DNA of 64,000 nt from Streptacidiphilus sp. PB12-B1b. Its GTDB lineage: Bacteria > Actinomycetota > Actinomycetes > Streptomycetales > Streptomycetaceae. The notes under the pieces were generated by a model. It was not told where the DNA came from, did no database searches, and was given only the letters and a program-made list of their open reading frames with translations. The stretch covers positions 7,316,001 to 7,380,000 of the forward strand of contig NZ_CP048405.1 of the NCBI RefSeq assembly GCF_014084125.1, read 5' to 3'. Below, piece by piece: positions 26,941 through 56,600 of the stretch. The first letter of the stretch is position 1; each line of letters begins with the position of its first letter. Position numbers and translations under genes: made by a program.

Positions 26941-26983
26941 GAGCCCGCCCACCGACCGAGACGACAACGGGGACTTACGCACG

Positions 26984-28403: not shown

Positions 28404-28500
28404 AAAGCCGCGAGTCCGGCGTAAAGCTGCTTTATCCGGCCGTGTCGTTGCCGTAGCGAAACCGTTACTACCGCACGGCGTATCCCGGCGTCCGTCCGAG

Positions 28501-28544
28501 GTTCACCCTCCGTTCATGTGTGCTGGCCTGTCGCTTCACCTCCC
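28501..28544 (+). promoter_or_regulatory. PHO box: four 11-bp direct-repeat units upstream of pstS
   Basis: Four adjacent 11-base units: GTTCACCCTCC (28501), GTTCATGTGTG (28512), CTGGCCTGTCG (28523) and CTTCACCTCCC (28534). Units one, two and four match the Streptomyces PhoP-binding unit well; the third is poor, as is common. The array ends 95 bases before the pstS start, and CATAGCGT just downstream (28548-28555) could supply a -10. PhoP activation of pstS under phosphate limitation is well established in the genus. The 28404-28500 stretch before it has only minor inverted repeats. Confidence 0.8.
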
Positions 28545-28639
28545 CCGCATAGCGTCCAGTGGTGTCGGAGGCCGCAAGACCCTCCCTCCACTACGAAGGC
28601 CCAGACCACAGACCTGGGCCACTCCGAAAGGGACACCAA

Positions 28640-29785
28640 GTGAAGCTCCAGCGGAACGGCCGCACCAAGGCCCTCGCCATCGGCGCCGTGGCGGTCGTCA
28701 GCTCGCTGACGCTCGCGGCGTGCGGCTCCAACAACAACAGCTCCACCAACGCCGGCGGCTCCACCCCGGCCGCCTCCTCCAGCTCGACCGGCGGCTCGGC
28801 CGCCTCCGCCTGCGGCAGCGGCCAGCTGCTCGGCGCCGGCTCCACCGCCCAGCAGAACGCTGTGACGCAGTGGGTCAAGGACTTCCAGACCAAGTGCCCC
28901 TCGGTCACCGTGAACTACCAGGGCACCGGCTCGGGCGCGGGCCTGACCAGCTTCGAGGCCGGCAAGGTCGCCTTCGCCGGCTCGGACGCGGCCATGAAGC
29001 CCGCCGACGTCACCAAGACCAAGGCGGTCTGCCCCGGCGGCCAGGGCATCGACCTGCCGATGATCGGCGGCCCGATCGCCATCGCCTACAACCTTCCCGG
29101 TGTGAACAGCCTGGTCCTGGACGCCCCGACGCTGGCGAAGATCTTCACCGGCAAGATCACCAACTGGAACGACACGGCCATCAAGACGCTCAACCCGTCG
29201 GCCGCCCTGCCGAACCTGCCGATCCAGACCTTCCACCGGGTCGACAGCTCGGGCACCACCAACAACTTCACCGCGTACCTGAACGCCACCGACCCGACCG
29301 ACTTCCCGTACAAGGCCACCAAGGTGTGGCCCGCCAAGGGCGGCCAGTCGGCGAACGGTTCGGCCGGGCTCGCGGCGCAGGTCAAGGCCGTCAAGGGCTC
29401 CATCTCCTACTTCGAGATGTCCTACGCGACCGAGGGCAACTTCTCCACCGTCCAGATCGCCACCGGCGCCCCGGCCCCGGTCGCCGTCTCGGCCGCCAAC
29501 GCGACCACCACCATCGCCGACGCCCCCGTCGTGGGCACCGGTGACGACCTCTCGCTGAAGATCAACTACGCGACCAAGGCCCCGAACGCCTACCCGATCA
29601 CCCTGGTCACCTACGAGATCGTCTGCGACAAGGGCAACAACGCCTCGTCGCTGCCGGCCCTGAAGGCCTTCCTGAACTACACCATCAGCACCGCCGGACA
29701 GCAGTCGGTCACCTCGCTCGGCTACGTCCCGCTGCCCGCCGCCCTGCAGACCAAGGTCCAGGCGGAGATCAGCAACCTCGGCTGA
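28640..29785 (+). CDS. pstS: Phosphate ABC transporter substrate-binding lipoprotein PstS
   Basis: A 381-residue lipoprotein. Signal peptide with lipobox LAACG (lipidated Cys about residue 28), then a Ser/Ala-rich linker to about 58 and the phosphate-binding fold. The ligand region includes LLGAGSTAQQNAVTQWVKDF, VNYQGTGSGAGLTSF, GSDAAM and RVDSSGTTNNFTAYL. It captures phosphate outside the membrane for PstCAB. GTG start with AAAGGGA about 7 bases upstream. A strong hairpin follows before pstC. Confidence 0.95.
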   Translation: MKLQRNGRTKALAIGAVAVVSSLTLAACGSNNNSSTNAGGSTPAASSSSTGGSAASACGSGQLLGAGSTAQQNAVTQWVKDFQTKCPSVTVNYQGTGSGAGLTSFEAGKVAFAGSDAAMKPADVTKTKAVCPGGQGIDLPMIGGPIAIAYNLPGVNSLVLDAPTLAKIFTGKITNWNDTAIKTLNPSAALPNLPIQTFHRVDSSGTTNNFTAYLNATDPTDFPYKATKVWPAKGGQSANGSAGLAAQVKAVKGSISYFEMSYATEGNFSTVQIATGAPAPVAVSAANATTTIADAPVVGTGDDLSLKINYATKAPNAYPITLVTYEIVCDKGNNASSLPALKAFLNYTISTAGQQSVTSLGYVPLPAALQTKVQAEISNLG

Positions 29786-29799
29786 CCCGGCACACCCCG

Positions 29800-29844
29800 C
29801 TGCGGTCCGGTCCTGCCCCTGGGGGAGGCAGGGCCGGACCGCAG
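29800..29844 (+). terminator. Long intra-operon hairpin between pstS and pstC
   Basis: An 18-bp stem with one G-U pair (29800-29817 with 29827-29844) and a 9-base loop. It may partly stop transcription or protect the pstS end, giving more PstS than membrane components. Confidence 0.7.
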
Positions 29845-29939
29845 TGGCCGTTCTCCCCCCGTTCTGCCCTCCCCCTCAGTCCGGTGCACCGCCGCCAGGC
29901 GCCGTCCCCGGTGACGACGCCACCCAGACCGGAGAATCC

Positions 29940-31004
29940 ATGGAACTCCCAGACACCGCTCCACCGAGCAACCCGCAGGAGAAGTCCGAGCCGGACGACC
30001 TCCGGCCCGATCTGCTCAGCAGTTCCGCCCCCGCCACCGCAGTGGTCGAGCCCGCCCCCGAGAAGCTCCGCGGCGTGGTCCGCCTGGGCGACCGGCTGTT
30101 CGCCGGCGCCTCCCGGGGCTCCGGCATCCTGCTGCTGGTGATCATGGCCGCCATCGCGGCCTTCCTGACCGTCCGCTCCGTCCACGCCATCGGCGAGGAC
30201 GGCGGCAACTTCCTGACCACCCAGGGCTTCGACATCACCGACACCCCGATGGTGTTCGGCATGTCCGCGCTGGTCCTGGGCACCGCCGTCAGCGCGATCG
30301 TGGCCATGGTGCTCGCCGTGCCGATCTCCGTCGGCGTGGCCCTGTTCATCTCGCACCTGGCCCCGCGCCGCCTGGCCCAGGGCCTGGGCTACGTGGTCGA
30401 CCTGCTCGCCGCCGTCCCCAGCATCGTCTACGGCCTGTGGGGCGCGCTGTTCCTGGTCCCGCACATGCTCGGGGTCAACGCCTGGCTGAACCAGTACTTC
30501 GGCTGGACCTACGTCTTCAAGCAGCAGCTGCCCGGCGACCAGCCGCGCAGCCTGTTCACCGTCGGCGTGCTGCTGGCCATCATGGTGCTGCCGATCATCA
30601 CTGCGGTCAGCCGCGAGATCTTCCTCCAGGTCCCCCGGGCGCACGAGGAGGCCGCATTGGCCCTCGGCGCCACCCGCTGGGAGGTCATCCGCACCTCCGT
30701 GCTGCCGTTCGCCCGCTCCGGCATCATCAGCGCCTCCATGCTGGGCCTCGGCCGCGCGCTCGGCGAGACCATGGCCGTGGCCACGGTCCTCTCCCCGCAG
30801 CTCACCCTGGGCCTGCACATCACCGACCCGGGCGGCAGCACCATCGCGCAGAACATCGCCACCCAGTTCGGCGAGGCGTCCAGCGACGGACTGGACGCCC
30901 TGATCGCCTCCGGCCTGGTCCTCTTCGTCATCACGCTGCTGGTCAACGGCGGTGCTCGGCTGATCATCGCCCGCCGCAAGGAATACTCGGGGGCGAACGC
31001 CTGA
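29940..31004 (+). CDS. pstC: Phosphate ABC transporter permease PstC
   Basis: A 354-residue permease with six or seven membrane segments, starting after a hydrophilic N-terminus of about 60 residues. The EAA loop appears as EEAALALGATRWEVIRTSVLP, and AVPSIVYGLWG is typical for PstC. GGAG lies 5 bases upstream of the ATG. Its TGA overlaps the pstA ATG (TGATG). Confidence 0.95.
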   Translation: MELPDTAPPSNPQEKSEPDDLRPDLLSSSAPATAVVEPAPEKLRGVVRLGDRLFAGASRGSGILLLVIMAAIAAFLTVRSVHAIGEDGGNFLTTQGFDITDTPMVFGMSALVLGTAVSAIVAMVLAVPISVGVALFISHLAPRRLAQGLGYVVDLLAAVPSIVYGLWGALFLVPHMLGVNAWLNQYFGWTYVFKQQLPGDQPRSLFTVGVLLAIMVLPIITAVSREIFLQVPRAHEEAALALGATRWEVIRTSVLPFARSGIISASMLGLGRALGETMAVATVLSPQLTLGLHITDPGGSTIAQNIATQFGEASSDGLDALIASGLVLFVITLLVNGGARLIIARRKEYSGANA

Positions 31005-32074
31005 TGAGCACCATCTCCACCGCGCCGCGCAGCGGCCGCACGCCGTCCACCCTCAGCGGACGCCGCCTTCCCAAGTGGACGCCGGCCGCGAGCGTCGTCG
31101 GCGCGGTCGCCCTCGCCGTGCTGCTCGGCACGGTCTTCTCGATCCACAGCAAGCTCCAGTGGGGGCTGCTGGCCGCGATCTTCTTCGTGCTCGCCCAGTA
31201 CCTGCTCACCCGCTCCGTCGAGGGCGCCCGCCAGGCCAAGAACGGCCTGGTCACCAGCCTGGTCTGGGTCGCCTTCCTGCTGGCGCTGCTGCCGCTGGTG
31301 GGCCTGCTCTACTACACGGTGAACAAGGGCATCGGTGTCATCAACACCACCTTCCTGACGCACTCGATGAACGAGATCTCGCCCAACCAGAGCGGCGGCG
31401 GTCTCTACCACGCGCTGATGGCCACCCTGGAGCAGGTCGGCCTGGCCACCCTGTTCGCCGCCCCGGTCGGCATCCTGACCGCGGTCTACCTGGTCGAGTA
31501 CGGCAACCGCAGCAGGCTCGCCAAGATCGTCACCTTCTTCGTGGACGTGATGAGCGGCGTGCCGTCGATCGTCGCCGGCCTGTTCGTCCTGACGTTCTGG
31601 ATCATGATCCTGGACATGCCCTACACCGGCTTCGCCGGCAGCCTCGCCCTGGCCATCCTGATGATGCCGGTCGTGGTCCGGGCAACCGAGGAGATGCTGA
31701 AACTCGTTCCCAACGAGCTGAGGGAGGCCAGCCTCGCGCTGGGCGTCCCCAAGTGGCTGACCATCCTTCGGATCGTCCTTCCTACCGCCATCGGCGGCAT
31801 CACCACCGGCGTCGTGCTGGCCATCTCCCGCATCATCGGCGAAACCGCGCCGATCCTGCTGCTGGTCTTCGGCACCGACCTGATCAACACCAACCCGTTC
31901 AGCGGCCCGCAGTCGTCACTCCCGCTGTTCGTCTACCAGCAGTACAACGCGGGTACGCCCGCCTCCCAGGCCCGGGCCTGGGGCGGTGCACTGGTCCTGA
32001 TCGCGCTGGTCATGCTGCTGAACCTGGTCGCTCGCGGGATCGCCCGCTGGAAGGCCCCCAAGGCATCGCGCTGA
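31004..32074 (+). CDS. pstA: Phosphate ABC transporter permease PstA
   Basis: A 356-residue permease with the EAA loop REASLALGVPKWLTILRIVLP and the typical SGVPSIVAGLFV and GETAPILLLVFG segments. It starts inside the pstC stop codon, so translation is coupled. PstC and PstA form the membrane channel of the high-affinity phosphate transporter. Confidence 0.95.
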   Translation: MSTISTAPRSGRTPSTLSGRRLPKWTPAASVVGAVALAVLLGTVFSIHSKLQWGLLAAIFFVLAQYLLTRSVEGARQAKNGLVTSLVWVAFLLALLPLVGLLYYTVNKGIGVINTTFLTHSMNEISPNQSGGGLYHALMATLEQVGLATLFAAPVGILTAVYLVEYGNRSRLAKIVTFFVDVMSGVPSIVAGLFVLTFWIMILDMPYTGFAGSLALAILMMPVVVRATEEMLKLVPNELREASLALGVPKWLTILRIVLPTAIGGITTGVVLAISRIIGETAPILLLVFGTDLINTNPFSGPQSSLPLFVYQQYNAGTPASQARAWGGALVLIALVMLLNLVARGIARWKAPKASR

Positions 32075-32128
32075 CGCGCCGGCCGCCACAGACTTTTCAG
32101 ACTTCAGGAACGAGAGAAGAACCCCATC

Positions 32129-32905
32129 ATGGCCAAGCGCATCGACGTCAGCGGGCTCAACGCCTTCTACGGAAAGTTCCGGGCCGTCGAGGACATCTCG
32201 ATGACCGTCGAACCCCGCTCCGTGACCGCCTTCATCGGCCCCTCCGGCTGCGGCAAGTCCACCTTCCTGCGCACGCTCAACCGCATGCACGAGGTCATCC
32301 CCGGCGCCCGCGTCGAGGGCAAGGTCCTCCTGGACGACGAGAACCTCTACGGGGACAACGTCGACGCCGTGGCCGTGCGCCGCACCGTCGGCATGGTCTT
32401 CCAGCGCCCCAACCCGTTCCCCACCATGTCCATCAAGGAGAACGTGGCGGCCGGGCTCAAGCTCAACGGCGTCCGCAACAAGAAGGCAATAGACGAGGCC
32501 GTCGAGCGGTCGCTGATCGGCGCCAACCTGTGGAACGAGGTCAAGGACCGGCTCGACCGGCCCGGCGCCGGCCTCTCCGGCGGCCAGCAGCAGCGGCTGT
32601 GCATCGCCCGCGCCATCGCGGTCGAGCCCCAGGTGCTGCTCATGGACGAGCCCTGCTCCGCCCTGGACCCGATCTCGACCCTCGCCATCGAGGACCTGAT
32701 CGGCACCCTGAAGGAGCAGTTCACCATCGTCATCGTCACCCACAACATGCAGCAGGCGGCCCGCGTCAGCGACCGCACCGCCTTCTTCAACCTGTCGGGC
32801 GTCGGCCAGCCCGGGCGGCTGATCGAGATCGACGCCACCGAGAAGATCTTCTCCAACCCGTCCGTGCAGGCCACCGAGGACTACATCTCCGGCCGCTTCG
32901 GGTGA
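32129..32905 (+). CDS. pstB: Phosphate ABC transporter ATP-binding protein PstB
   Basis: A 258-residue ATPase. Walker [11 protein letters not shown]-loop [12 protein letters not shown], signature LSGGQQQR, Walker [13 protein letters not shown] and the His switch [13 protein letters not shown] are all intact. It powers PstCA. The start is ATG 32129, 54 bases after pstA. A strong terminator follows. Confidence 0.97.
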
Positions 32906-32955
32906 CCCACCGGACCACCCCGTGGCGCTGCTAGGCGGTGCCGCCACGGGGTAGC

Positions 32956-32995
32956 AGAAGGCCCCGCCCCCCGTAGACCGGGGGCGGGGCCTTCT
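32956..32995. terminator. Bidirectional terminator between pstB and pit
   Basis: A perfect 15-bp stem (AGAAGGCCCCGCCCC at 32956-32970 with 32981-32995) encloses a 10-base loop, followed by T-rich bases on both sides. It separates two convergent operons. Confidence 0.9.
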
Positions 32996-33030
32996 TTCCG
33001 TTCCGTCCTCGTGTGCCGTACGGCCCGGCG

Positions 33031-34026
33031 TCAGCGGACGACCGCCCAGGAGATCCAGTAGACCAGCGCGGCGACCAGCCCGGCGGCGGGCATGGTCAGG
33101 AACCAGCCGATGACGATGTTCTTGGCCACCCCCCAGCGCACCGCCCGCACCCGCTTGGTCGCGCCCACGCCCATGATCGCCGAGGTGATGATGTGGGTGG
33201 TGGAGACCGGCACCCGGTAGGCGTACGCCGTGATGTAGAGGATGGACGCGGCCACCGACTCGGCGGCGAAGCCCTGCGGCGGGTCCAGCTCGATGATCTT
33301 CCGGCCCAGGGTGCGCATGATCCGCCAGCCGCCGGCCCAGGTGCCCAGCGACAGCACCACGGCCGTGCTGGTCTTCACCCAGAACGGGATGGCCGAACCG
33401 GTCAGGTGGTGCGAGATGGTCAGCGCCAGCACCACCACACCCATGGTCTTCTGCGAGTCCTGCAGGCCGTGGCCGAGCGCCATGGCCGCCGCGGACACCG
33501 TCTGCGCCATCCGGAAGTCGCGCTTGGCCCGGTGCGGGTTGGCCCGGCGGAAGATCCACATGATGGCCACCATCATGGCGAAGCCCAGCACCAGGCCGAC
33601 GATCGGAGACGTGATCATCGGAATGACCACCTTCTCCCACACGCCGGTCCAGAAGACCTTGGTGCCGCCCGCCAGCGCCGCCCCGACCATCCCGCCGAAC
33701 AGCGAGTGGGTGGACGAGGAGGGGAGGCCGAAGTACCAGGTGACCAGGTTCCAGGTGATCGCGCCGATCAGCGCCGCCCACAGGACCACCATCCCCTGCC
33801 GACCGGACGGCGCCTCGATGATGCCCTTGCTGACGGTCTGGGCGACTCCCGTCCCGAGGAACGCGCCGGCCAGGTTCATCACCGCCGCCATCATCAGCGC
33901 CGCCCGGGGCGTCAGCGCCCGGGTGGACACCGAGGTGGCGATGGCGTTGGCCGAGTCGTGGAAGCCGTTGGTGTAGGCGAAGCCGAAGGCAACACCCACC
34001 ACAAGGACCAGTCCGAGGATGTCCAC
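33031..34026 (-). CDS. pit: Low-affinity inorganic phosphate transporter (PiT family)
   Basis: A 331-residue membrane protein with the PiT duplicated signature: NGFHDSANAIAT near the N-terminus and GHGLQDSQKTMGVV in the second half, plus FGLPSSSTHSLFGG and VPVSTTHIITSAIMGVG. It is a proton- or metal-phosphate symporter. It starts at GTG 34026, five bases after the DUF47 gene stops, forming the usual DUF47-pit operon. In S. coelicolor, pit genes respond to phosphate; no PHO box is visible upstream here. Confidence 0.94.
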   Translation of the reverse strand: MDILGLVLVVGVAFGFAYTNGFHDSANAIATSVSTRALTPRAALMMAAVMNLAGAFLGTGVAQTVSKGIIEAPSGRQGMVVLWAALIGAITWNLVTWYFGLPSSSTHSLFGGMVGAALAGGTKVFWTGVWEKVVIPMITSPIVGLVLGFAMMVAIMWIFRRANPHRAKRDFRMAQTVSAAAMALGHGLQDSQKTMGVVVLALTISHHLTGSAIPFWVKTSTAVVLSLGTWAGGWRIMRTLGRKIIELDPPQGFAAESVAASILYITAYAYRVPVSTTHIITSAIMGVGATKRVRAVRWGVAKNIVIGWFLTMPAAGLVAALVYWISWAVVR

Positions 34027-34031
34027 GTAGC

Positions 34032-34652
34032 TCAGGACTCCTTGACGGCGATGGTCTCCACCGTGTTCGCCACATGTTCGAACGCGTCGGCTGCTTCCTC
34101 CAGCACGTCGACGACCTGCTTGAGCTTCAGCACCTCGATCGCCTCGTAGGCACCGCTGAACAGGTGCGCCAGGAGCTTCCGGTGGATCTGGTCCGCCTGG
34201 TTCTCCAGCCGGTTGACCTCGATCCAGTACTCGGTGAGGTTGTCCATGGTGCGCAGGTTCGGCATGGCCGCGGCGGTCAGCTCCGCCGCCCGCGCCAGCA
34301 CCTCGATCTGCTGTTCGATGCCCTGCGGCAGGGTCTCGATCTCATAGAGGACGACCAGGTCGACGGCCTCCTCCATGAAGTCCATGACGTCGTCCAGGGA
34401 CGACGCCAGGCTGTAGATGTCCTCCCGGTCGAAGGGCGTGATGAAGGACGAGTTCAGCTGGTGGAAGATGGCATGGGTGATGTCGTCGCCCGCATGCTCG
34501 GCGGCACGCATGCGCTCGGCCAGGTCGGGGCGTGCGGCGACATCTGCACCGAGCAGCTCCAGCAGGAGGTTCGAGCCCGTGACAAGGTTCGCCGCCGAGG
34601 AAGCGAACATGTCATAGAAGCTCGTCTCCCGGGGGGTCAGACGAATTCGCAC
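34032..34652 (-). CDS. DUF47 family (PhoU-like) Pit accessory protein
   Basis: A 206-residue helical protein of the DUF47/PhoU-like family. The segment EHAGDDITHAIFHQLNSSFITPFDREDIYSLASSLDDVMD carries the acidic metal-binding pattern of the family. It regulates or assembles with the PiT transporter encoded 5 bases downstream. Confidence 0.92.
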   Translation of the reverse strand: MRIRLTPRETSFYDMFASSAANLVTGSNLLLELLGADVAARPDLAERMRAAEHAGDDITHAIFHQLNSSFITPFDREDIYSLASSLDDVMDFMEEAVDLVVLYEIETLPQGIEQQIEVLARAAELTAAAMPNLRTMDNLTEYWIEVNRLENQADQIHRKLLAHLFSGAYEAIEVLKLKQVVDVLEEAADAFEHVANTVETIAVKES

Positions 34653-39873: not shown

Positions 39874-40926
39874 TCAGGACAGGGAGCCCCCGTTGGCGAT
39901 TCCGCCGCCCGGCTGCAGGGTCGGCAGGGCGGCCGCGCCACCGGCCGTCACCCGGGTGGCGCCGAAGTAGTCGCCCTCGGCGTCGATGGAGTCGTAGCGG
40001 ATGACCGAGCCGGTGTGCGGGGCGTCGATCATCATGCCGCCGCCGACGTAGATGCCGACGTGGTGGATCTTGCTGGGGTCGTTCGGATCGGTCGAGAAGA
40101 ACACCAGGTCGCCGGGTTGCAGCTGGCTGCGCGAGGGGTGCGGGCCGGCGTACCACTGGTCGGCGGCCACGCGCGGGATGGCGATCCCCACGCTGGCGTA
40201 CGCCGCCTGGGTCAGCCCGGAGCAGTCGAACTCGTAGTTCTGCGAGGCCAGGCCCTCGCCGCCCCACAGATAAGGAGTCCCGAGCCGCGCCTGGGCGTAG
40301 TAGATGGCCCCGGCGGCCTGCTCGGAGAAGGCGATGGGGGTGGCCGCGGCGAAGGACTGGGCCAGCTTGTTGATGGAGGTGACGTAGTCCTCGGTCTGGG
40401 CGTAGGCCGGGATGCCGTCGGCGCTTATCACCGCGTAGGGCCCGGCGTTGTAGGCGGCCAGCATGTTGGCGGTGGCGTTGCCGGGGACGTTCTTGGTGTC
40501 CTTGGCCAGCTGGCAGTCGTAGGTGGCGGCGGAGGGGATGGCGTCCGCCGGATCCCAGACGTCCGGCGAGGCGTGCGCATGGGTGGGGTCCATGCCGTAG
40601 ACCGCCCAGGTCGCGGGCATGAACTGGGCGATGCCCTGGGCGCCCACGGGGCTGACGGCCTGCGGGTTGAAGCCGCTCTCCTGGTACATCTGCGCGGCGA
40701 GCAGCGGCGGCGTCAGCTGCGGGCACAGGGTGCCCCACTGCTGGATGATCGAGGCGTAGGCGGCCGGGACGGTGCCCGGGGCGAGCTGCAGGGCGGCGGC
40801 GCTCTGCTGCTGGCCCTGGAGGATGGAGCCGGCGGCGGCGTACGTCCCCACCACCACCAGCGCCAGGAACCCGGCGACCGCGGCGCCGCCCGAGCCCAGC
40901 GCGATCCAGGTCCGCCGCCCCGCCAT
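39874..40926 (-). CDS. Bifunctional lytic transglycosylase / NlpC-P60 (C40) peptidase
   Basis: A 350-residue exported wall hydrolase. One N-terminal membrane helix (about 8-32); an SLT-like transglycosylase domain (about 55-190) with catalytic Glu in MYQESGFNPQAV and the family motif GAQGIAQFMPATW, AYNAGP; then a C40 peptidase domain (about 205-330) with Cys in FDCSGLTQAAY and His in HHVGIYVGGGMM. The same architecture occurs in conjugation-associated enzymes that open peptidoglycan. It lies divergent to the secretion-like genes, 341 bases away from the first of them. Confidence 0.9.
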   Translation of the reverse strand: MAGRRTWIALGSGGAAVAGFLALVVVGTYAAAGSILQGQQQSAAALQLAPGTVPAAYASIIQQWGTLCPQLTPPLLAAQMYQESGFNPQAVSPVGAQGIAQFMPATWAVYGMDPTHAHASPDVWDPADAIPSAATYDCQLAKDTKNVPGNATANMLAAYNAGPYAVISADGIPAYAQTEDYVTSINKLAQSFAAATPIAFSEQAAGAIYYAQARLGTPYLWGGEGLASQNYEFDCSGLTQAAYASVGIAIPRVAADQWYAGPHPSRSQLQPGDLVFFSTDPNDPSKIHHVGIYVGGGMMIDAPHTGSVIRYDSIDAEGDYFGATRVTAGGAAALPTLQPGGGIANGGSLS

Positions 40927-41267
40927 CAGCGGCCGGCCGAACGGGCGTCAGCGGCGGCGCGCACCATGGCAGTACAGGTCGAACGCATGTGCCACCTGCC
41001 TCGTCCGAAGGGATTTGCGATTGCCCTCATAGAGTCTGGACCCAGGCGTTGCCCAGTGCAATCAGCTGCGATACACAGAGTAAGCGGTAGTCTCATCCGA
41101 GCGGCTCCAGGCTCCATGAGGTCCCATGGTGGCACCTGTGGCCTATCACTCAGTGGCGATCCTTGGGAAAGTGGCCAAGTCGACTTCGGTTCTGGCCAAG
41201 AATAGGACTGGGCCCTACACCACGGCCGGGTGCTGGGCTTTGATAGATGATCAGGTGGGTGGTTCCT
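40927..41267. promoter_or_regulatory. Divergent intergenic region of the secretion-like cluster
   Basis: 341 bases without a credible gene. It is less GC-rich than the surroundings between 41010 and 41260. It must hold the promoters of both the wall hydrolase and the downstream cluster. GTGGCCAAG (41171-41179) and TGGCCAAG (41193-41200) form a short direct repeat. No regulator site is recognised. Confidence 0.4.
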
Positions 41268-41576
41268 ATGTATCTCAGCGCGAACAAGAACGACATCAGC
41301 ACCATCATCGGAGGCATCGCCCCCAACTGGGGCCCCTTCGCCAGCCTGGGCACGGAGGCCAGGACGATGGTGGAGGTCGTCATGGCCGTCGCCATCCTCG
41401 GCTGCCTCGCCATCGCCATCTGGGGCGCGGCCAAGCAGCGGATCGGCGCGACGGCGCTGCGGGACACCTTCAGCGCCGAGCAGGGCAAGGGTCTGATCAT
41501 CGCCGGTCTCACCGGCGTGTTCATCATCGGATCGCTCGGTACGTTGTTCACCATTGTGTATGGGATGGCGATCTGA
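41268..41576 (+). CDS. Small two-helix membrane protein, VirB2/TrbC-like by size and context
   Basis: A 102-residue protein starting MYLSANKNDISTIIGG. Two hydrophobic helices (about 34-53 VEVVMAVAILGCLAIAIWGA and 79-98 LIIAGLTGVFIIGSLGTLFT) flank a basic loop with Gln/Arg. Topology and size match the major pilin-type subunit (VirB2/TrbC/PrgI-like) of type IV systems, but there is no sequence signature, so this is inferred from position. AGGTGGG lies about 9 bases upstream of the ATG. Confidence 0.75.
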   Translation: MYLSANKNDISTIIGGIAPNWGPFASLGTEARTMVEVVMAVAILGCLAIAIWGAAKQRIGATALRDTFSAEQGKGLIIAGLTGVFIIGSLGTLFTIVYGMAI

Positions 41577-41827
41577 TTATTCGTCTGGATGGTTCGGGCA
41601 CCCGGCCCGCCGCCGTCCCGCCCAGCAGGTCCGTACCGCCCGGCAGGTCCCACCCGCGGAGCGTCCGGACCGGCACCCCGCCCTGTCCGTCGTGTCCGTC
41701 GTGCGTACCGGATCGGTCACGCTCTCCCCACGAGCCGCCGCTTCGGTGACACCCTTTCACCCTGTGCTGCCCGCAGCGCCGTCCGAGTCCCGTCCGTCCT
41801 GCTCACCCTCGTCCCAAGGGGGCTGTC
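41577..41827. other. Intergenic region with no recognised feature
   Basis: 251 bases of GC-rich sequence. I see no promoter, hairpin or small gene that I can support. Confidence 0.5.
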
Positions 41828-42652
41828 GTGTCCGTGCCTGACGACCAGCCGCACACGCGTACCCGCTACCCGGCGGGCGAAGCGCCGCCCGAGGCGGCAC
41901 CGGGACGGCACCCCCTGCGCACGCTCGGGGCGGTCCTGGGGGCGGTGGTGCTGCTGCTGGTGGTGATCGCGGTGGTCAACCGCACCAGCGGGAGCAGCAC
42001 CCAGGCGGGCGGGACCACCGGCGGAGCCGGCTCCGCCGCGGGCCCGGGCTCCGGCAGCGCCGCGAAGGCGTCCGCGACCGCCCCGACCGGGGCCCAGCCG
42101 GTGACCACCTCCCAGGACGGCATCGCCACCGGCTACCCCCACACCTCCGAGGGGGCACAGTCCGCCGCGGTCAACTACAGCGTCGCCCTCGGCTCCAGCC
42201 AGATGTACGCGACAGCGAGCCGCCACAGCATCCTGCAGACCGTCATCGACCCGTCGGCAGTGGCACAGCTCGAAGCGACCACGGACACGCAGTACGGCAA
42301 TCTGAACAAGACCCTCGGGCTGACCGACGGCGTCGCCCGTCCCGGTCTCACCCTCGTCAGCCGACCGCTGCCGGCCGGGGTCAAGGCGGACAGCTACAAC
42401 GGCGACACCGCAACCGTCGAGGTATGGAGCGACCAGCTCGGCGGCCTTGCCGGGACCGGCTCCACGCAGCCTGTCGCCGAGTACTGGTACACCCTGACGA
42501 TGCACCTGGCCTGGATCGGCGGCGATTGGAAGATCGCCAGCTACTCCTCCTTCGACGGACCGGCGCCGATCGGCGCCAGCCAGCAGGTGTCATCTGCCAA
42601 CGCAATCGCCGGTGCGGTCAACCAGTTCGGAGGGTTCCGCTATGCCCGCTAG
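41828..42652 (+). CDS. Single-pass membrane protein, VirB8/TcpC-like in topology
   Basis: A 274-residue protein. A cytoplasmic N-terminus, one helix (about 33-49, GAVLGAVVLLLVVIAVV), a Ser/Gly-rich linker, and an extracytoplasmic domain of about 170 residues (GYPHTSEGAQSAAVNYSVAL ... EYWYTLTMHLAWIGGDWKIASY), which resembles an NTF2-like fold as in VirB8/TcpC. The WIGGDWKI ending is typical for such folds. Start GTG 41828 with AAGGGGG upstream. It overlaps the next gene by 11 bases. Confidence 0.8.
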   Translation: MSVPDDQPHTRTRYPAGEAPPEAAPGRHPLRTLGAVLGAVVLLLVVIAVVNRTSGSSTQAGGTTGGAGSAAGPGSGSAAKASATAPTGAQPVTTSQDGIATGYPHTSEGAQSAAVNYSVALGSSQMYATASRHSILQTVIDPSAVAQLEATTDTQYGNLNKTLGLTDGVARPGLTLVSRPLPAGVKADSYNGDTATVEVWSDQLGGLAGTGSTQPVAEYWYTLTMHLAWIGGDWKIASYSSFDGPAPIGASQQVSSANAIAGAVNQFGGFRYAR

Positions 42653-43945
42653 GTTCCCCACCCGGGTCGGGCTACTCGCGGGAGCCCTCTCCTGCGTGCA
42701 GTTCACCGCGCTGCTGATGGCCGGCACGGCCTTCGGCGCTCCGTCCCCCAGCCCCAGCGCGAACAACTGCACCGGCCTGGTCGGCCCCGGCAAGGTCATC
42801 TGCGAGCACGGAACCTCCGGCTCCCCCCCGGGACCGGGGGGATTCTGCCGTCGTCGGTGGATCCTCTCCAGTCCCTGGCGAGCGCCTGCGCCACCGCCGC
42901 CGCCTGGGTGATCCGCAAGCTCTCCGCGGGGATCAACGCGACCACGAACGTGAACTTCACCGACCCGAGCTTCCTGCGCACCTACGCGGTGGTCTTCGGC
43001 GCCTCCACCTTCCTCACCCTGATCCTCTGGCTCCTCGCGGTGGCGAAACGCGCCGCCCGCGGCGTCCCCTTCCACCAGGCCATCGGCGAGGCCATCGGCT
43101 TCCTGTGGCTGACCGTGATCGCCTCCGCCTTCACCCCGCTGATCCTCTACACCGTCGTCAGCGCCACCGACGGCATCACCGCCGCCATCGCCTCCGGCAC
43201 GAAGACCGACACCACCAGCTATCTGGGCTCCTTCGCCTCCGCCCTGACCGGCGGCAACCTCGGCGGCGGCCCGATCATCCTGGTCCTGGTGTCGCTGGTG
43301 GCGATCCTCGCCGCCGCCGTCCTGTGGATCGAGATGCTGATCCGCGCCGCCATGCTCTACGTCGGCGCGCTCCTCGGCACCGCCGTCTACGCCGGCCTGG
43401 TCGACAAGCAGCTGTGGAAGCACGTCCGCCGCTGGGCGGGCGTCATGGTGGCGGTGGACCTGATCAAGCCGGTGATCGTGATCGTCCTGGGCCTGGCCGG
43501 CGCCATCGCCTCCAACGCCGGGGCGAACGACGCCTTCTCGACGGTCATGTCGGGCGTGGCCATCCTGATCCTGTCGATCTTCGCCAGCAGCGCCATCTAC
43601 CGCTTCGTCCCGGGCTTCGGCGACGAGATGGCGGCGATGCGCCGCCAGCGCTCCAGCGCGGTGAGCGCCGGCGCCGCGGTGCTGAACGGCCCGGCGAACT
43701 TCATGAAGCAGGGCATCAGCACCCACGCCGGGCGCGGCGGGGACTCGCCCGGCGGCGGCTCGGGCGGCTCCGGCGGCGGCAACAGCGGCGCGGCCAGCGC
43801 CGGTGCCGGGATCGCCGCGCACGCGGCCCGCACCGCGCCCGCGCCCCCCGCACCGCCCGTGCAGTCCTCCGGCGGCAGCAAGGCTCCAGCCCCGGCCGGC
43901 AGCGGTAACAGCAGCTCCACCAGTGCCCAGGGAGGCCGCTCTTGA
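42642..43945 (+). CDS. TrbL/VirB6-like polytopic membrane protein, frame broken after the signal peptide
   Basis: A signal peptide (MPARFPTRVGLLAGALSC and the following hydrophobic stretch to AFGAPSPSPS) and then, in a -1 frame, ILPSSVDPLQSLASACATAA and six or more membrane helices (e.g. TYAVVFGASTFLTLILWLLA, IGFLWLTVIASAFTPLIL, VSLVAILAAAVLWIEMLI). The Gly/Ser/Pro-rich tail is hydrophilic. The helices resemble the TrbL/VirB6 channel protein. The frame step lies in the C7/G6 runs at 42822-42841; one extra base joins signal and body. The first good ATG in the second frame is absent (GTG 42857). Confidence 0.82.
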
Positions 43946-45483
43946 CCACCCAACCCGTCGGGGGCTACCGGCGTACCTACCTGATCGGCAAGGCCAAGCC
44001 CAACGCCGTCATCGGGAAGAACCGGGAGAGCGGGGAGGTCTTCCTGCTCATCTTCGGCGCCTTCCTGGGGATGCTGTGGGGCATCGCCATCCAGCAGGTG
44101 CTGGTGCTGCGGCTGGCCGGCCTGCTGGCGTTCCCGCTGCTGGCCTTCGCCATCGTCTACCTGCCGTACCGCAAGCGGACCTTCTACAAGTGGGCGGAGA
44201 TCAACCGCACCTACCGCCGCACCGTCCGCAGCGGCAACGGCGTCTGGCGGTCGGACGTGCACGAGGCCGGCACCCGGCTGGACGGGCGCGAGGTCGAGAT
44301 CGGCCCCCCGCCGGGGATCGGCCGGATCCGCTGGCTGGCCGCGCCCTTCGGCCCGGACGAGGTCGCCGTCCTGATGCACCTGAACCGGCGCACGGTGACC
44401 GCCGCCATCGAGATCGAGGGCCCCGGCGTCGGGCTGCGCGACTCGGAGGACCAGGAGTCGCTGGTGGAACGCTTCGGGACGCTGCTGAAGCACGTCGCCA
44501 ACGGCGACGGCTTCGTCACCCGGCTGCAGATCCTGGCCCGCACCCTGCCGGCCGACCCGGACGCGCACGCCAAGGACGTCGCCCGGCGCGGCGACCCGGA
44601 CGCCCCGGTGTGGCTGAAGGACTCGTACGACCAGCTGCAGGCGATGGTCTCGACCTCGTCCGAGCAGCACCGCGCCTACCTGGTCGCCTGCATGCCCTAC
44701 ACCCGCGACCTCGCCGCCGAGGCGCACGTCATGGGCCGCAACAGCGGGCGCGGGGCGCGCGGCGACGAGGGCCTGGCGGCGGTCATGTCGCGCGAACTGA
44801 ACGACATCTGCGCCCGACTGGCCGAGGCCGACATCCGGGTGCGGCAGCCGCTGGGGCAGGCCCGGCTGAGTTCGCTGCTGCACTCCATGTACGACCCGGA
44901 CCACCAGATCGACCACCTGCAGGCCATGTCCAAGCGGAACGCCTGGCCCGCCGAGCTGGACGCGACCCACCCCAACTACCTGCAGGCGAAGACCCGCGAG
45001 TCGGCCACCCGGGAGCCCTGGTGCCACGCCACCGCCTGGATCAAGGAGTGGCCGCTGACACCGGTCGGGGTCAACTTCCTGGCCCCGCTGCTGGTCCACA
45101 CCCCGGACGTGATCCGGACCGTGGGCGTCACCATGGACCTGGAGCCGACCGACGTCGCCATCGAGCGGATGCTGACCGAGAAGACCAACGACGACGCCGA
45201 GGCCAGCCGGCAGGCGAAGCTGAACCGCACGGTGGACCCGCGCGACGCGGCGCACAGCGGGCGCGTGGACCAGCGCGGGGAGGATCTCGCCTCGGGCGCG
45301 GCGGGCGTGAACATCGTCGGCTACATCACCGTCAGCTCCCGTACGCCGGAGGCACTTGCCCGGGACAAGCGGACAATCCGCGCCTCAGCGGGTAAGAGTT
45401 ATCTGAAGCTCGAATGGTGCGACCGCGAGCACCACCGGGCCTTCGTCAACACGCTCCCCTTCGCCACCGGCATCCGCCGCTAA
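43942..45483 (+). CDS. SCO6880 family protein (type IV secretion-associated)
   Basis: A 513-residue protein. A short N-terminus (TTQPVGGYRRTYLIG), two close membrane helices (about 30-75, PrgI-like position), then a long soluble part with QSLVERFGTLLKHVANGD-like helices and an end domain (GYITVSSRTPEALARDKRTIRASAGKSYLKLEW) reminiscent of the N-terminal half of VirB4-type proteins. The family SCO6880 is known only by name; in actinobacteria it travels with the VirB4-like ATPase that follows. It overlaps the preceding gene by 4 bases. Confidence 0.85.
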   Translation: MTTQPVGGYRRTYLIGKAKPNAVIGKNRESGEVFLLIFGAFLGMLWGIAIQQVLVLRLAGLLAFPLLAFAIVYLPYRKRTFYKWAEINRTYRRTVRSGNGVWRSDVHEAGTRLDGREVEIGPPPGIGRIRWLAAPFGPDEVAVLMHLNRRTVTAAIEIEGPGVGLRDSEDQESLVERFGTLLKHVANGDGFVTRLQILARTLPADPDAHAKDVARRGDPDAPVWLKDSYDQLQAMVSTSSEQHRAYLVACMPYTRDLAAEAHVMGRNSGRGARGDEGLAAVMSRELNDICARLAEADIRVRQPLGQARLSSLLHSMYDPDHQIDHLQAMSKRNAWPAELDATHPNYLQAKTRESATREPWCHATAWIKEWPLTPVGVNFLAPLLVHTPDVIRTVGVTMDLEPTDVAIERMLTEKTNDDAEASRQAKLNRTVDPRDAAHSGRVDQRGEDLASGAAGVNIVGYITVSSRTPEALARDKRTIRASAGKSYLKLEWCDREHHRAFVNTLPFATGIRR

Positions 45484-45511
45484 CCCCCGACCCGCCCACT
45501 GGAGGCATCGC

Positions 45512-46870
45512 ATGGCAGCAGCACCCGTGGGCGGCCTGACCGACGCTTTCGGCGCCTTCCTGTTCGGCAAGAACGAGACGACGCGCCTGCCCGTCCGCAC
45601 CTCGACCGGACAGGCGCAGGCCGTGTACCTGCCGACCGCGGCGCCGGGACTCGGCGACTCCGGTGTGATCATCGGACGCGAGGTCTACAGCGGCAAGGGC
45701 TACGTCTACGACCCGTTCCAGCTCTACGGCCAGCAGCTGCCCGCGCCGCACTGGCTGGTCCTCGGCGAGTCCGGCAACGGCAAGTCCGCGCTGGAGAAGA
45801 CCTACGTCCTGCGGCAGCTGCGGTTCCGCGACCGGCAGGTCGTCGTCCTGGACGCCCAGGGCGAGGACGGCGTCGGCGAGTGGAACCTGATCGCCCGCGC
45901 GCTGGGGATAACTCCGGTCCGGCTCGACCCGCAGGCGGCCCTCGCCGGCGGGGTGAAGCTCAACCCGCTCGACCCGGCGATCACCACCACCGGCCAGCTG
46001 GCGCTGCTGCGCACCATCGTCGAGGTGGCGATGGGCCGCGGCCTGGGCGAGCGCGCCGGCTTCGCGCTGAAGGCGGCGCACGCGCACATCACCGCGACCA
46101 TCACCGACCGGCAGCCGGTCCTGGCCGACATCATCGACACGCTGCGCACCCCGAACACCGACTTCATCGACCCGCTCGGGGTCTCCCTGACGGACATCCA
46201 GACCTGGGGCCTGGACGTGGCCCTGGTGCTGGACCGCCTGGTCGACGGCGACCTGCGGGGCATGTTCGACGGGCCGACCACCACCGACATCGACCTGGAC
46301 GCCCCGCTGATCGTCTTCGACCTGTCGCACATCGACCGCAACTCGATCGCCATGCCGATCCTGATGGCGATCGTCGGAGTATGGCTCGAGCACACCTGGA
46401 TCAGGCCCGACCGCAAGAAGCGGATCTTCCTGGTGGAGGAGGCCTGGCACATCATCAACTCGCCCTTCGTGGCTCAGCTGTTCCAGCGGCTGCTGAAGTT
46501 CGGCCGCCGCCTGGGCCTGTCGTTCATCGCCGTCGTCCACCACCTCTCGGACGTCGTGGACGGCGCTGCGGCCAAGGAGGCGTCGGCGATCCTGAAGATG
46601 GCCTCCACCCGTACCATCTACATGCAGAAGGCAGACGAGGCCCGGGCCACCGGGCGGGTGCTGGGGCTTCCGCGCTGGGCGGTGGAGATCATCCCCACGC
46701 TGTCGCCGGGCATCGCGGTCTGGGACGTCAACGGCAACGTCCAGGTCGTCAAGCACCTGATCACGGAGCAGGAGCGCCCGCTCGTCTTCACCGACCGGGC
46801 CATGACGGAGGACGCCATCATCGAACGCACCCGCGCCTCCCAACATCTGGCCGACGACCCGGCTGCCTGA
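45512..46870 (+). CDS. VirB4/TraC-like ATPase
   Basis: A 452-residue AAA/FtsK-HerA-type ATPase. Walker A GESGNGKS (85-92) and Walker B RIFLVEEAWHII (about 305-318) are intact; the sensor region is LSFIAVVHHLSDVV. It lacks the large N-terminal part of VirB4, which the preceding SCO6880-family protein may supply. It powers pilus assembly or substrate transfer in type IV systems. ATG 45512 has a GGAGG site 9-10 bases upstream. Its TGA overlaps the next start (TGATG). Confidence 0.92.
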   Translation: MAAAPVGGLTDAFGAFLFGKNETTRLPVRTSTGQAQAVYLPTAAPGLGDSGVIIGREVYSGKGYVYDPFQLYGQQLPAPHWLVLGESGNGKSALEKTYVLRQLRFRDRQVVVLDAQGEDGVGEWNLIARALGITPVRLDPQAALAGGVKLNPLDPAITTTGQLALLRTIVEVAMGRGLGERAGFALKAAHAHITATITDRQPVLADIIDTLRTPNTDFIDPLGVSLTDIQTWGLDVALVLDRLVDGDLRGMFDGPTTTDIDLDAPLIVFDLSHIDRNSIAMPILMAIVGVWLEHTWIRPDRKKRIFLVEEAWHIINSPFVAQLFQRLLKFGRRLGLSFIAVVHHLSDVVDGAAAKEASAILKMASTRTIYMQKADEARATGRVLGLPRWAVEIIPTLSPGIAVWDVNGNVQVVKHLITEQERPLVFTDRAMTEDAIIERTRASQHLADDPAA

Positions 46871-48993
46871 TGGTCGGACAGGCACCGGGCCCCCGCCCGT
46901 ACGGCCCCCGGAGTCGGGGGCCGCAGGCACCGCCCCCCGGACGCGGCATCCCGGACGGGGCGATCGTCGGGCTGCTGGCGACCCTGCTGGGCACCACCGT
47001 GCTGGTGTGGACGGCGACCGCGCTGGCCGGGCTGTTCAGCCACGGCCACCTGCCGCACCCGCTGCCGTTCGAGGGCACGCCCACGGCGATCCGGGTCCTG
47101 GCGACCGAGCCCAACCGGCTGGTGGCGGCCTGGCCCGGGACGCCCACCGCCGAGCTGCCCTCGCCGACGGCCTTCTGGTCGACCTTCTTCGTGCTGCTGG
47201 CCCTGCTGATCGCGCTGATGCTGACGATGCTCACGGCCTGGACCCGGCTGAGGCGCGCCACCGCCGCGGCCAGGGCCCGCCAGGAGCCGCCGTACGACCC
47301 CTCGTACGGCCAGCCGCACCAGCAACCGCACCAGCAGCCCTACCGGCAGCAGGCCGACGGTGGCCGGGGTGACCGCTCCCGCGCCGGTCGGCAGCCGCAG
47401 CCGCAGCCGCCGGGGCTTGATGACCCGTGGGCGGCCGGTCCCTACCCGGCGGCAGGACCGTATCCGGCAGCCGGGCAGGCCGCGCCCGCGCCGGGCGCGC
47501 CCGGGTACCGGACACCCCCGTACGGGACGCCCCCGTACGGGACGCCCTCGGCCGCCGGGCCCGGCCCGGCTCCGGAGCGGCCGGCCGGGTACGAGGTGCC
47601 CGCGCCGCGCCCGGTACCGGACCGGGAGGCCCCCAGCGCCCACGCCGCACCCGCCGTGCCCGCGCCCGCCCATCCGCCTGCGCCCGCCCCTGCGCGACCC
47701 GCCGTACCCGTCGCCGATCCGTCCACGCCGCCGCCCGTGGCTGTGCCTGCGGGGGCGACGGCGCTGACGAAGGCTTCCCCGCCCGGCACCCGGTCCGGCG
47801 GCCGGGCCCTGGTACTGCCGCCGGGCGCGGTCTGCCTGCTGGCCCCCGAACCCGCCGCGTCCGCCGGGGCCAGGCGCCGGCTGCTGCGGCGGGCGGTCGA
47901 CCAGGCCACCGGGGCCGTCCTGGTCGTCAGCGACGACCTGGCGCTCTGGGAGGCCCGGCCCGCGCACCGCGACGCCCGGCTGTTCGACCCCCTGCGGCTG
48001 ACCGACGCCGACAGCGAGACGCGGGTCCGCTGGGCCCCGCACGACCGCTGCGAGGACCCGACCGTCGCGCTGGCCCGCGCCCGGGCCCTGCTCGCACCGA
48101 CCACGCGCCCGGGCAACTCGCCCGGCGAGAAGGGCGTCCAGGAGGCCGCCCAGACCCTGCTGCGCTGCTGGCTGCACGCTGCCGCCCTGGACCGGCGCCC
48201 GTTCCGGCACGTCCTGCGCTGGGCCGCCGGAACGGCCCGGCAGGAGGCGGTGACCATCCTGCGCACCGCCGATCCGCACGCGGCCGCGCCGGGCTGGAGC
48301 GGCGAGCTGCAGTCCGTCCTCGCCAACGCCACCGACGTCCGCGAGGCGGCGCTGGAGCGGGTGCTGTCCGCCCTCGACGTCCTCTCCGATCTGCACGTCC
48401 TCAAGGCGTGCACGCCCGAGTCGGCACATGATGCCCTCGATCTGGAGTCGTTCCTGCGCAATCGGGGAACGCTGTACCTGGCGGGCCGCGCGGAGGAGTC
48501 CCGGGTCAGCCGCTCAGCGCACAGCGCGATGCCGCTCCTGACCGCGCTTGTGGAAGACGTGGCCGAGCTCGGCCGGCGCATGGCCGTACGGTCATCCTCC
48601 GGTCGGCTCGACCCACCACTGCTCTGCGTCCTGGACAGCGTCGCCGCCGTCGCCCCGCTGCCCGGACTGCCGGATCTGATGGCCCGGGGCGGCCCGCTCG
48701 GGATCAACACCGTCGCCGTACTCCGCTCCCCCGAGCAGGCCCGGGCCCGCTGGGGCGACCGGGCCGTCCACAGCCTGTGGACAAGCGCGGACGCCCGGGG
48801 AGTCCTGGGACCGGCGTCCGGGCCCCTGTTCGGCCCGCCCGAGACCACCGGCCCGGCCGCCGAGCTGGACGCCGAGCTCACCCCCGCCCTGACCGCCGGC
48901 GAACTCCTGCTGCTCCGCCCGCGCCACCCCGCCGAACGCCTCTCCCTGCCGCCGGAGCCCGCAACCGGCGAACCGACTGCCGCGAACACATGA
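46870..48993 (+). CDS. VirD4/TraG-like coupling-protein homologue lacking ATPase motifs
   Basis: A 707-residue protein. Two membrane helices (about 29-54 and 98-121), a long Pro/Gln/Gly-rich linker (about 135-310), and a C-terminal domain aligning with coupling proteins: LLPPG-like ALVLPPGAVCLLAP, then VVSDDLALWEA, ARLFDPLR, RWAPHDRCEDPTVALARA, and the Walker B strand LLCVLDSVAAVAPLPGLPDLM. The P-loop is replaced by EPAASAGARRR and the catalytic Glu after Walker B Asp is Ser. It is thus unlikely to hydrolyse ATP. The close order with VirB4-like gene supports a structural or regulatory role. Confidence 0.82.
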   Translation: MVGQAPGPRPYGPRSRGPQAPPPGRGIPDGAIVGLLATLLGTTVLVWTATALAGLFSHGHLPHPLPFEGTPTAIRVLATEPNRLVAAWPGTPTAELPSPTAFWSTFFVLLALLIALMLTMLTAWTRLRRATAAARARQEPPYDPSYGQPHQQPHQQPYRQQADGGRGDRSRAGRQPQPQPPGLDDPWAAGPYPAAGPYPAAGQAAPAPGAPGYRTPPYGTPPYGTPSAAGPGPAPERPAGYEVPAPRPVPDREAPSAHAAPAVPAPAHPPAPAPARPAVPVADPSTPPPVAVPAGATALTKASPPGTRSGGRALVLPPGAVCLLAPEPAASAGARRRLLRRAVDQATGAVLVVSDDLALWEARPAHRDARLFDPLRLTDADSETRVRWAPHDRCEDPTVALARARALLAPTTRPGNSPGEKGVQEAAQTLLRCWLHAAALDRRPFRHVLRWAAGTARQEAVTILRTADPHAAAPGWSGELQSVLANATDVREAALERVLSALDVLSDLHVLKACTPESAHDALDLESFLRNRGTLYLAGRAEESRVSRSAHSAMPLLTALVEDVAELGRRMAVRSSSGRLDPPLLCVLDSVAAVAPLPGLPDLMARGGPLGINTVAVLRSPEQARARWGDRAVHSLWTSADARGVLGPASGPLFGPPETTGPAAELDAELTPALTAGELLLLRPRHPAERLSLPPEPATGEPTAANT

Positions 48994-51299: not shown

Positions 51300-51418
51300 G
51301 TTCGGCGGTGTCCTACTCTCCCACAAGGTCCCCCTTGCAGTACCATCGGCGCTATGAGGCTTAGCTTCCGGGTTCGGAATGTAACCGGGCGTTTCCCTCA
51401 CGCTATGACCACCGAAAC
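51300..51418 (-). rRNA. rrf: 5S ribosomal RNA
   Basis: About 119 bases. On the minus strand it starts GTTTCGGTGGTCATAGCGTG and ends GGACACCGCCGAAC, with CCGAACCCGGAAGCTAAG in the middle, typical for actinobacterial 5S. Confidence 0.95.
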
Positions 51419-51482
51419 ACTATGAAGTTGACCCGCACTCCCCGGCATGACGCTCCCGGGAAGGGGTCGTTGCTTCAGAACA

Positions 51483-51494
51483 ACACAGTGGACG
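51483..51494 (-). other. 3' arm of the 23S rRNA processing stem
   Basis: The bases at 51483-51494 are a perfect 12-bp complement of 54640-54651 on the other side of the 23S gene. The two arms would form the RNase III-type stem that releases pre-23S rRNA. Confidence 0.7.
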
Positions 51495-51507
51495 CGTAGC
51501 AACTATG

Positions 51508-56457
<4,950 letters not shown>

Positions 56458-56600
56458 ATGTATTCCGGATATCCGGAGCACACCCGCGAAAGAGCGGCAC
56501 GACAGTCAGCGGAACAGCCGACCTCGTGCACTGCGTCCTCGCTAGTGTTTTGTGCATCAAAGGAACCACGTCCAAAAAACGGACGGGGTATCAACATATC

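Follow-up and report, generated by a model that had tools for sequence, protein, structure and literature searches.

The closest described relative of the gene cluster considered here is the cmdABCDEF operon (SCO4126–4131), which Xie, Zeng and Qin reported in 2009 to be co-transcribed in Streptomyces coelicolor and whose deletion leads to sporulation defects in S. coelicolor, S. lividans and S. avermitilis (PMC2782261). The present cluster lies in Streptacidiphilus sp. PB12-B1b at positions 39874–48993 of the window, by which is meant the whole stretch of 64,000 nucleotides that was analyzed (positions 7316001–7380000 of a 7.67 Mb, one-contig genome). It comprises six + strand genes, preceded by a wall hydrolase gene in divergent orientation. 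The six encode a two-helix protein, a VirB8-like protein, a TrbL-like protein, an SCO6880 protein, a VirB4-type ATPase and a homolog of the coupling protein of type IV secretion systems (T4SSs). The cluster corresponds to the cmdFEDCBA operon together with tgdA, the latter given as SCO4132 in the available sections of PMC6585502. Earlier work described the operon, its phenotype and the likeness to VirB4, and suggested a type IV-like channel. What is new is that, to judge from its motifs and its distribution, the coupling protein of the cmd cluster is dead or absent.

The published phenotypes are developmental. Colonies that lack any one of cmdB to cmdF are pale and sporulate poorly, whereas the cmdA deletion sporulates normally (PMC2782261). 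Loss of cmdB or of the operon results in late aerial growth, short spore chains and disturbed septation and chromosome partition, with 8% anucleate spores in the absence of cmdB and 6% in the absence of the operon. Pigment is overproduced in the cmdB, cmdD, cmdE and operon deletions. CmdB is a membrane protein, mutants in two of its conserved lysines do not complement, and the cmdB transcript increases at aerial growth. Transfer of an SLP2-derived plasmid was unaltered in the deletion mutant (data not shown there; all PMC2782261). Genes hit in a transposon screen for raised actinorhodin include cmdBCDEF and tgdA, and the sections available list no hit in cmdA (PMC6585502). These phenotypes of the same genes were overlooked by the original prediction for this DNA, which mentioned similar clusters in other streptomycetes but no settled function; its suggestion of a role near septation is compatible with the published mutants.

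Other described systems share some of these parts. Transfer of the S. lividans plasmid SLP2 requires co-transcribed genes, three of which resemble cmd genes (PMC2782261). Its VirB4 relative is 33.8% identical and an SLT/C40 hydrolase is encoded nearby; however, SLP2 is a conjugative plasmid with an FtsK/SpoIIIE gene of its own. T4SSs without VirD4 are also known, namely Ptl, the Brucella system and ComB (PMC12857230, in the part available). Like the cmd cluster, Ptl, Brucella VirB and ComB are VirB-type machines without a working coupling protein, but they belong to two-membrane bacteria and include outer-membrane parts, whereas cmd belongs to a one-membrane order and to development.

The window shares parts and gene order with S. 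coelicolor cmdABCDEF and tgdA by peptide match, family resemblance and position. The peptides ESGNG[K]SALE and VQVV[K]HLIT, read from the published CmdB primers, are both present in the window ATPase, with the marked lysines at K91 and K414. Nine of the 13 family copies of the ATPase that were compared have their Walker lysine at residue 90, and the second conserved lysine falls at 410–419 in the Streptomycetaceae copies. The published cmdC and cmdD resemble SCO6880 and SCO6881 (PMC2782261), and SCO4131 is listed with two predicted helices in the available part of PMC2000904. The CmdA and CmdE assignments are putative and by position only; SCO4130, at the position of the VirB8-like protein, is described as a membrane glycoprotein (PMC6593405, in the part available). 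The 2009 paper names VirB4, the resemblance to SLP2 and a possible type IV-like channel, and in its text no VirB8, pilin, TrbL or dead coupling protein. Unlike its S. coelicolor counterpart, the cmdD gene of the window is frameshifted. As to the primers themselves, the labels K90 and K404 in PMC2782261 look swapped relative to the sequences, and by eye the K90A/K404A primers encode a change of K to R (in one oligo, K to E) and not to A.

The coupling protein and the place of its missing motif are as follows.

46870–48993, + strand: CmdA-like degenerate VirD4/TraG coupling protein (TraG-D_C 31.5 bits, cut-off 22).
47797–47898, + strand: place of the lost P-loop in the coupling protein (from an alignment with eight other copies that have GK[STG] there).

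The window protein has two hydrophobic segments and no P-loop. It had been described as a coupling-protein homolog, and the TraG-D_C match agrees; with the P-loop gone, it is not an ordinary one. The comparison was extended to named loci, which are the best 80 of 557 confirmed. A joint alignment was made with copies of at least 400 aa, 7 of the 61 named copies being shorter and left out. GK[ST] is found at the P-loop in none of the 54 named chromosomal copies, all of which cover the place; 50 lack GK and four have GK followed by R. In contrast, GK[STG] is present at that place in all 14 copies from elsewhere (8/8 from other loci and 6/6 from megaplasmids). These counts rest on the alignment, and a pattern demanding a leading G was set aside since it would miss the P-loops of the other copies too. 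In 6 of the 54 named copies, GK[STAG] occurs elsewhere in the protein, away from the P-loop place. Walker B, which could be recognized in 50 of the 61 named copies, reads DE in none and DD in 45, while DE is found in the seven other copies (7/7), in locus L072, which also has GKT, and in the plasmids (6/6). When the window is compared to ten relatives, the coupling protein is 45–66% identical where the ATPase is 84–95% identical; the corresponding values for megaplasmid pairs are 73–92% and 77–94%.

In other loci the coupling protein was not found. It is missing from L092–L110, 19 of the 80 named loci and all from Kitasatospora or near kin, over the 8 kb that follow the ATPase in 18 of them and over 2 kb in L098. 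Nor was it found in any of the six loci of family f3, at a guess Catenulisporaceae. In five f3 loci the genes after the ATPase are NUDIX, CHAD and ppk (three loci) or other genes (two loci, with an arginase family gene first in L051); NUDIX and CHAD were confirmed for locus L052. No working VirD4 coupling ATPase was found in the cmd cluster.

The distribution of the cluster is that of an inherited element. The ATPase is present in all 40 listed members of the Streptomycetaceae, own genome included, the 39 others having 83–88% identity, and in 20 of 21 further members of the order at 80–95% identity; the miss is a genome in about 850 contigs (G216). Altogether, 59 of 60 other genomes of the order have it at 80–95% identity (60/61 with the own genome). 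The best-scoring matches in the remaining 353 genomes of the search are at most 38% identical, with the exception of a fragmented genome outside the order (G299, 76%), where relatives of the hydrolase, pilin, VirB8, TrbL and SCO6880 proteins are on the contig of the ATPase. The 199 genomes without an ATPase match are unlisted and, by the order of the list, were taken to include no Streptomycetaceae. A count of 292 of 293 refers to any SCO6880 copy, and the distribution of the operon was judged by the ATPase instead.

The nearest named relatives of the window ATPase are from Streptacidiphilus (92–95% identity). The order of hydrolase, pilin, VirB8, TrbL, SCO6880 and ATPase recurs in the 80 named loci, with SCO6880 found in 80, the ATPase in 80, VirB8 in 76, TrbL in 76, the pilin in 72, the coupling protein in 61 and the hydrolase in 49; many of the misses are contig ends and, in one locus, the VirB8 match is on the opposite strand. 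In a tree of the ATPase, the copies are grouped by family on short branches and other copies are on long branches, with the caveat that the cmd rows need two label changes instead of one (the long-branched L070 sits in an open fork, and a single change suffices in 26% of bootstrap trees). From the high identity across the order, the low identity outside it, the grouping by family and the neighboring genes shared with part of the f3 loci, the cluster was acquired by the time the families split and has been inherited since. The patchy, mobile distribution expected of a conjugative element was not seen, and by this evidence the cluster is inherited, not mobile. The view that it is a chromosomal, type IV secretion-like cluster and no obvious mobile element is thus supported.

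L104, labeled as Saccharothrix sp. ST-888, groups with the Kitasatospora-type copies in the ATPase tree, perhaps as a misnamed genome. Matches of the cluster ATPase are common in another family, f20, of which five loci (L075–L079) have a similar cluster. The Walker A motif of VirB4 is GAVGSRKS in L076–L079, and no coupling protein is found in the fetched stretches of L075–L079.

The remaining genes of the cluster are listed below.

39874–40926, − strand: TgdA-type wall hydrolase (lytic transglycosylase plus NlpC/P60), VirB1-like (Pfam SLT 61.5 bits, NLPC_P60 90 bits).
41268–41576, + strand: CmdF-like two-helix pilin-like protein, 102 aa, alternative start 41247 (two hydrophobic segments).
41828–42652, + strand: CmdE-like VirB8-fold protein with one membrane helix and an NTF2-like domain (AlphaFold2, VIA-align).
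42642–42851, + strand: signal-peptide-like start of the CmdD-like gene, in a frame that differs from that of the core (three-frame translation).
42857–43945, + strand: CmdD-like TrbL/VirB6-like polytopic membrane protein, core (six hydrophobic segments).
43942–45483, + strand: CmdC-like SCO6880 family protein (NF042935 203.4 bits, cut-off 60).
45512–46870, + strand: CmdB-like VirB4-type ATPase, Walker A lysine K91, Walker B VEEAW (AAA_10 42.0 bits, cut-off 27.5; P-loop_TraG over cut-off).

Open reading frames and profile scans place all seven proteins of the original prediction within the 9 kb where it had put them. The overlaps of 1–11 bases that it described are present at three junctions only (11, 4 and 1 bases), as the pilin and VirB8 genes are separated by a gap of 251 bases and the SCO6880 and VirB4 genes by a gap of 28 bases. 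Since the hydrolase gene is divergent, it cannot be on the transcript of the operon. A divergent relative of the hydrolase was found in 49 of the 80 named loci, and contig ends truncate many of the rest. The VirB4 ATPase, predicted VirB8 fold and VirB1-like hydrolase of a one-membrane-type T4SS are all present.

The VirB4-type ATPase was borne out with intact Walker motifs, AAA_10 being over its cut-off and the Walker A motif GESGNGKS and VEEAW being invariant across 20 aligned copies. The VirB8-like protein was the one compared by structure, and it fits a VirB fold, as had been proposed as a test for the small proteins. Its AlphaFold2 model has 145 residues with a pLDDT of at least 90. In a VIA-align search with this model, the top 25 rows were all T4SS entries of the VirB8/DotI type (Z 10.7–13.4): VirB8, DotI, IcmL-like, TraE, TrwG, CagV, PrgL, a TraM fragment and two chains of R388 complexes that are taken to be the VirB8 part. 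The next row was another NTF2-like domain (Z 10.6), tied with the lowest T4SS rows. A Pfam scan of 30 VirB8-like proteins identified no conjugation family.

The pilin-like protein is 76–93% identical to 16 chromosomal relatives of the order; one of its cousins has a weak T4SS_pilin match that is below the cut-off (E 0.0064). TrbL_4 was identified in 7 of 28 aligned relatives of the TrbL-like protein (best E 1.2e-4) and not in the window protein. The window gene is frameshifted between 42642 and 42857, beside C and G runs. Among 75 named relatives, the best in-frame hydrophobic 13-mer at the start of this protein scores above 1.8 in 59, 1.37–1.79 in 15 and 0.08 in L137, and the window scores 0.62 in frame and 1.82 in the other frame; the frameshift is apparently a mutation in the strain or a sequencing error. 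The SCO6880 protein has two hydrophobic segments near its N-terminus, at 32–71, and our guess is that it combines VirB3 with the N-domain of VirB4. A scan of viral_contigs for more diverse SCO6880 relatives found none, and PDB sequence searches with the SCO6880, VirB4, VirB8 and TrbL profiles gave no relevant match. Against PHROGs there were two weak matches, both to the ATPase and one of them a terminase, which are taken as reflecting a shared motor fold.

Closely related systems are found on linear megaplasmids of Streptomyces and Actinacidiphila (e.g. NZ_CP109145 and NZ_CP108308), which encode pilin-like, VirB8-like, TrbL-like, SCO6880, VirB4 and coupling proteins in the order of the window, the small parts being assigned by identity to the window proteins. 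Identity to the window is 33–51%, and there is an extra small gene before the TrbL-like gene. The divergent gene encodes an M23 peptidase in five of six megaplasmids, a different peptidase family from that of the window hydrolase, and a hypothetical protein in the sixth. The coupling protein has an intact P-loop, which reads GKTSQL in 6/6. Megaplasmids with this T4SS gene set (L168 and L170–L174) are typed "non-mobilizable" by PLSDB. Typing based on relaxases may miss how linear megaplasmids with a T4SS move.

The explanation that we favor, at even confidence, is that cmd is a VirB4-driven envelope machine without a substrate receptor, derived from a T4SS of the linear-plasmid kind and kept for hyphal development. 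The T4SS parts and gene order, the vertical inheritance and the decay or loss of the coupling protein are read directly from sequence. The ancestor would be a T4SS of the kind found on actinomycete linear plasmids that had become chromosomal by the time the families of the order split. CmdC and CmdB together may form a VirB4-type motor, which would insert the very conserved, pilin-like CmdF, or assemble it, together with CmdD and CmdE. Where TgdA has opened the wall, the product is predicted to span the envelope as a pore or short filament, and no receptor would feed it DNA or proteins from the cytoplasm. Septation and partition errors would then arise indirectly, via the envelope. The most constrained parts are the motor ATPase, the SCO6880 protein and the pilin-like protein; the machine would have retained the parts that build a pore or filament and dropped what feeds the substrate. 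A decayed coupling protein also explains why the cmdA deletion sporulates normally, and the transposon hits named for cmdBCDEF and tgdA agree with it. A more specific form of this proposal is offered tentatively and is rather less probable. In it, the spore-forming actinomycetes of one order would have inactivated or lost the substrate receptor of a conjugation-type machine and so obtained a developmental organelle, in which VirB4 powers a channel or tube built on pilin that would act during sporulation, either inside hyphal compartments or from one to the next.

Several observations weigh against this explanation. The filament, pore and substrate of cmd are hypothetical, and the pilin, TrbL and VirB3 assignments, which come from weak or below-cut-off matches, are less sure than the others. 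The predicted fold of the SCO6880 protein is poor (pLDDT 43 from 16 similar sequences), and the top Foldseek match for the CmdE-like model is plastid ARC6 (E 4.5e-5), with PrgL third. An early-branching copy of the coupling protein (G002) retains GPARSGKA. The VirB8-like protein diverges equally fast (47–60% in six cmd pairs), and speed alone does not therefore prove decay. Ten of 19 other T4SS-like loci are also without a coupling protein in the fetched 20 kb, and since this absence is not special to cmd, absence by position carries little weight; the dead motifs and the rate are more telling. In the published mutants, the single deletions of cmdA, cmdC and cmdF all had little or no extra pigment (PMC2782261), so cmdA does not stand alone in this respect. 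Finally, a direct role with DNA would be a simpler explanation of the 6–8% anucleate spores.

Such a role is the first alternative, which we regard as unlikely, if the strongest of its kind. It holds that cmd is a DNA-moving sporulation machine in which CmdB, a relative of FtsK/SpoIIIE, clears or pumps chromosomal DNA at spore septa and the other Cmd proteins form the pore. A type IV-like channel of a DNA-moving sort was suggested by Xie et al. (PMC2782261). The 6–8% anucleate spores and uneven nucleoids of the mutants are in line with it, as are the prediction of CmdB as a RecA/FtsK-type motor whose lysine mutants fail to complement and the place of the ATPase among the most conserved parts. 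However, the classic DNA receptor, the coupling protein, is dead or gone, transfer of the SLP2-derived plasmid was unaffected by the deletion, and partition is already served by FtsK and ParAB (PMC2782261). VirB4 proteins are better known for assembly, and for pili the literature agrees.

A shade less probable again is a VirD4-free protein secretion system that, like Ptl, takes substrates exported by Sec or Tat and releases a developmental factor. The T4SSs without VirD4 noted above (PMC12857230, in the part available) are a precedent, the wall hydrolase and pore parts are retained, and early antibiotic production in the mutants could mean that an outside signal is missing. Yet no conserved gene in the cluster stands out as encoding a candidate substrate and, in a one-membrane cell, Sec would already reach the outside, making a second step less needed.

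The last alternative, relaxase-free transfer of linear DNA that still works by borrowing a coupling protein or TraB from co-resident plasmids, is highly improbable: megaplasmid cousins with the genes in this order are typed non-mobilizable and SLP2 has similar genes beside an FtsK/SpoIIIE gene, but inheritance is vertical with short branches, transfer of the SLP2-derived plasmid was not affected and the developmental phenotype is seen in M145, a strain without native plasmids.

It had been argued that streptomycete plasmids transfer through TraB alone and that the machine must therefore do something else; this inference does not hold. Absence of a relaxase alone does not exclude DNA transfer because SLP2 transfer needs co-transcribed genes, three of them cmd-like (PMC2782261), and six linear plasmids that carry these genes in the order of the window are typed non-mobilizable. 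Stronger arguments come from the coupling protein, which is decayed or missing, and from the fixed inheritance. The claim that no relaxase or integrase is in or near the cluster agrees with the absence of any match at E 1e-5 among 20 flanking proteins and two further neighbors, of about 45 called outside the cluster; the origin of transfer, also claimed to be absent, was not searched for. Three relaxase families (PF03432, PF08751 and PF03389, and no others) were searched genome-wide, with none near the cluster; PF08751 and PF03389 have zero matches in the whole genome, and PF03432 matches lie elsewhere on C1 at 260180, 475092 and 583783. The genome has two further SCO6880 copies above the cut-off (441 and 420 bits, compared to 203 bits for the window copy), and a relaxase is 37 kb from the first of them.

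A conserved element lies upstream of the pilin gene.

41070–41083, no strand assigned: conserved element GATACACAGAGTAA, which differs at one position from the BldD box TNAC(N)5GTNA.

The element is about 200 bases upstream of the gene. The pattern GATACNNA[GC][AG]GT, which was derived from these same related regions, occurs in 65 of 73 upstream regions and in none of 3345 control pieces. With the BldD box taken as TNAC(N)5GTNA (PMC4151990, in the part available), the strict form is found in 35/73 upstream regions and 60/3345 control pieces, a relaxed form in 70/73 and 425/3345, and a narrower form in 39/73 and 18/3345; because the upstream regions are related, the counts are not independent. 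Alternatively, the element at 41070–41083 may be a core promoter element. Patterns for WhiG, ECF and sigma-70-type promoters match 0/73 upstream regions. The WhiA motif GACAC is found in 36/73, but is too short to judge. There are no TTA codons across the seven cluster genes.

In the surroundings of the cluster, a complete rRNA operon (16S, 23S and 5S) is downstream at window positions 51300–56458 on the − strand. Positions 24760–34652 of the window hold ppk, CHAD, NUDIX, phosphate-binding and ABC transport, PHO4 and PhoU-like genes. The PhoU-like, NUDIX and ppk genes, 5–15 kb from the cluster here, also flank it in three of the six f3 loci, and the PhoU-like gene does so in G299 as well.

In the open-access literature searched, no paper was found that connects the operon with VirB8, with a pilin or with a coupling protein that is dead, and the available part of a 2025 review of T4SSs makes no mention of cmd or sporulation. 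The normal sporulation of the cmdA deletion, an odd old result, is accounted for, and the 2009 phenotype becomes testable as that of a machine in terms of the assembly of CmdF, its site and what passes through. The cluster is a candidate developmental T4SS that is fixed across an order and for which mutants already exist. If the more specific organelle proposal is true, it would join a very short list of T4SSs that serve something besides DNA transfer in one-membrane bacteria, and would do so throughout an order.

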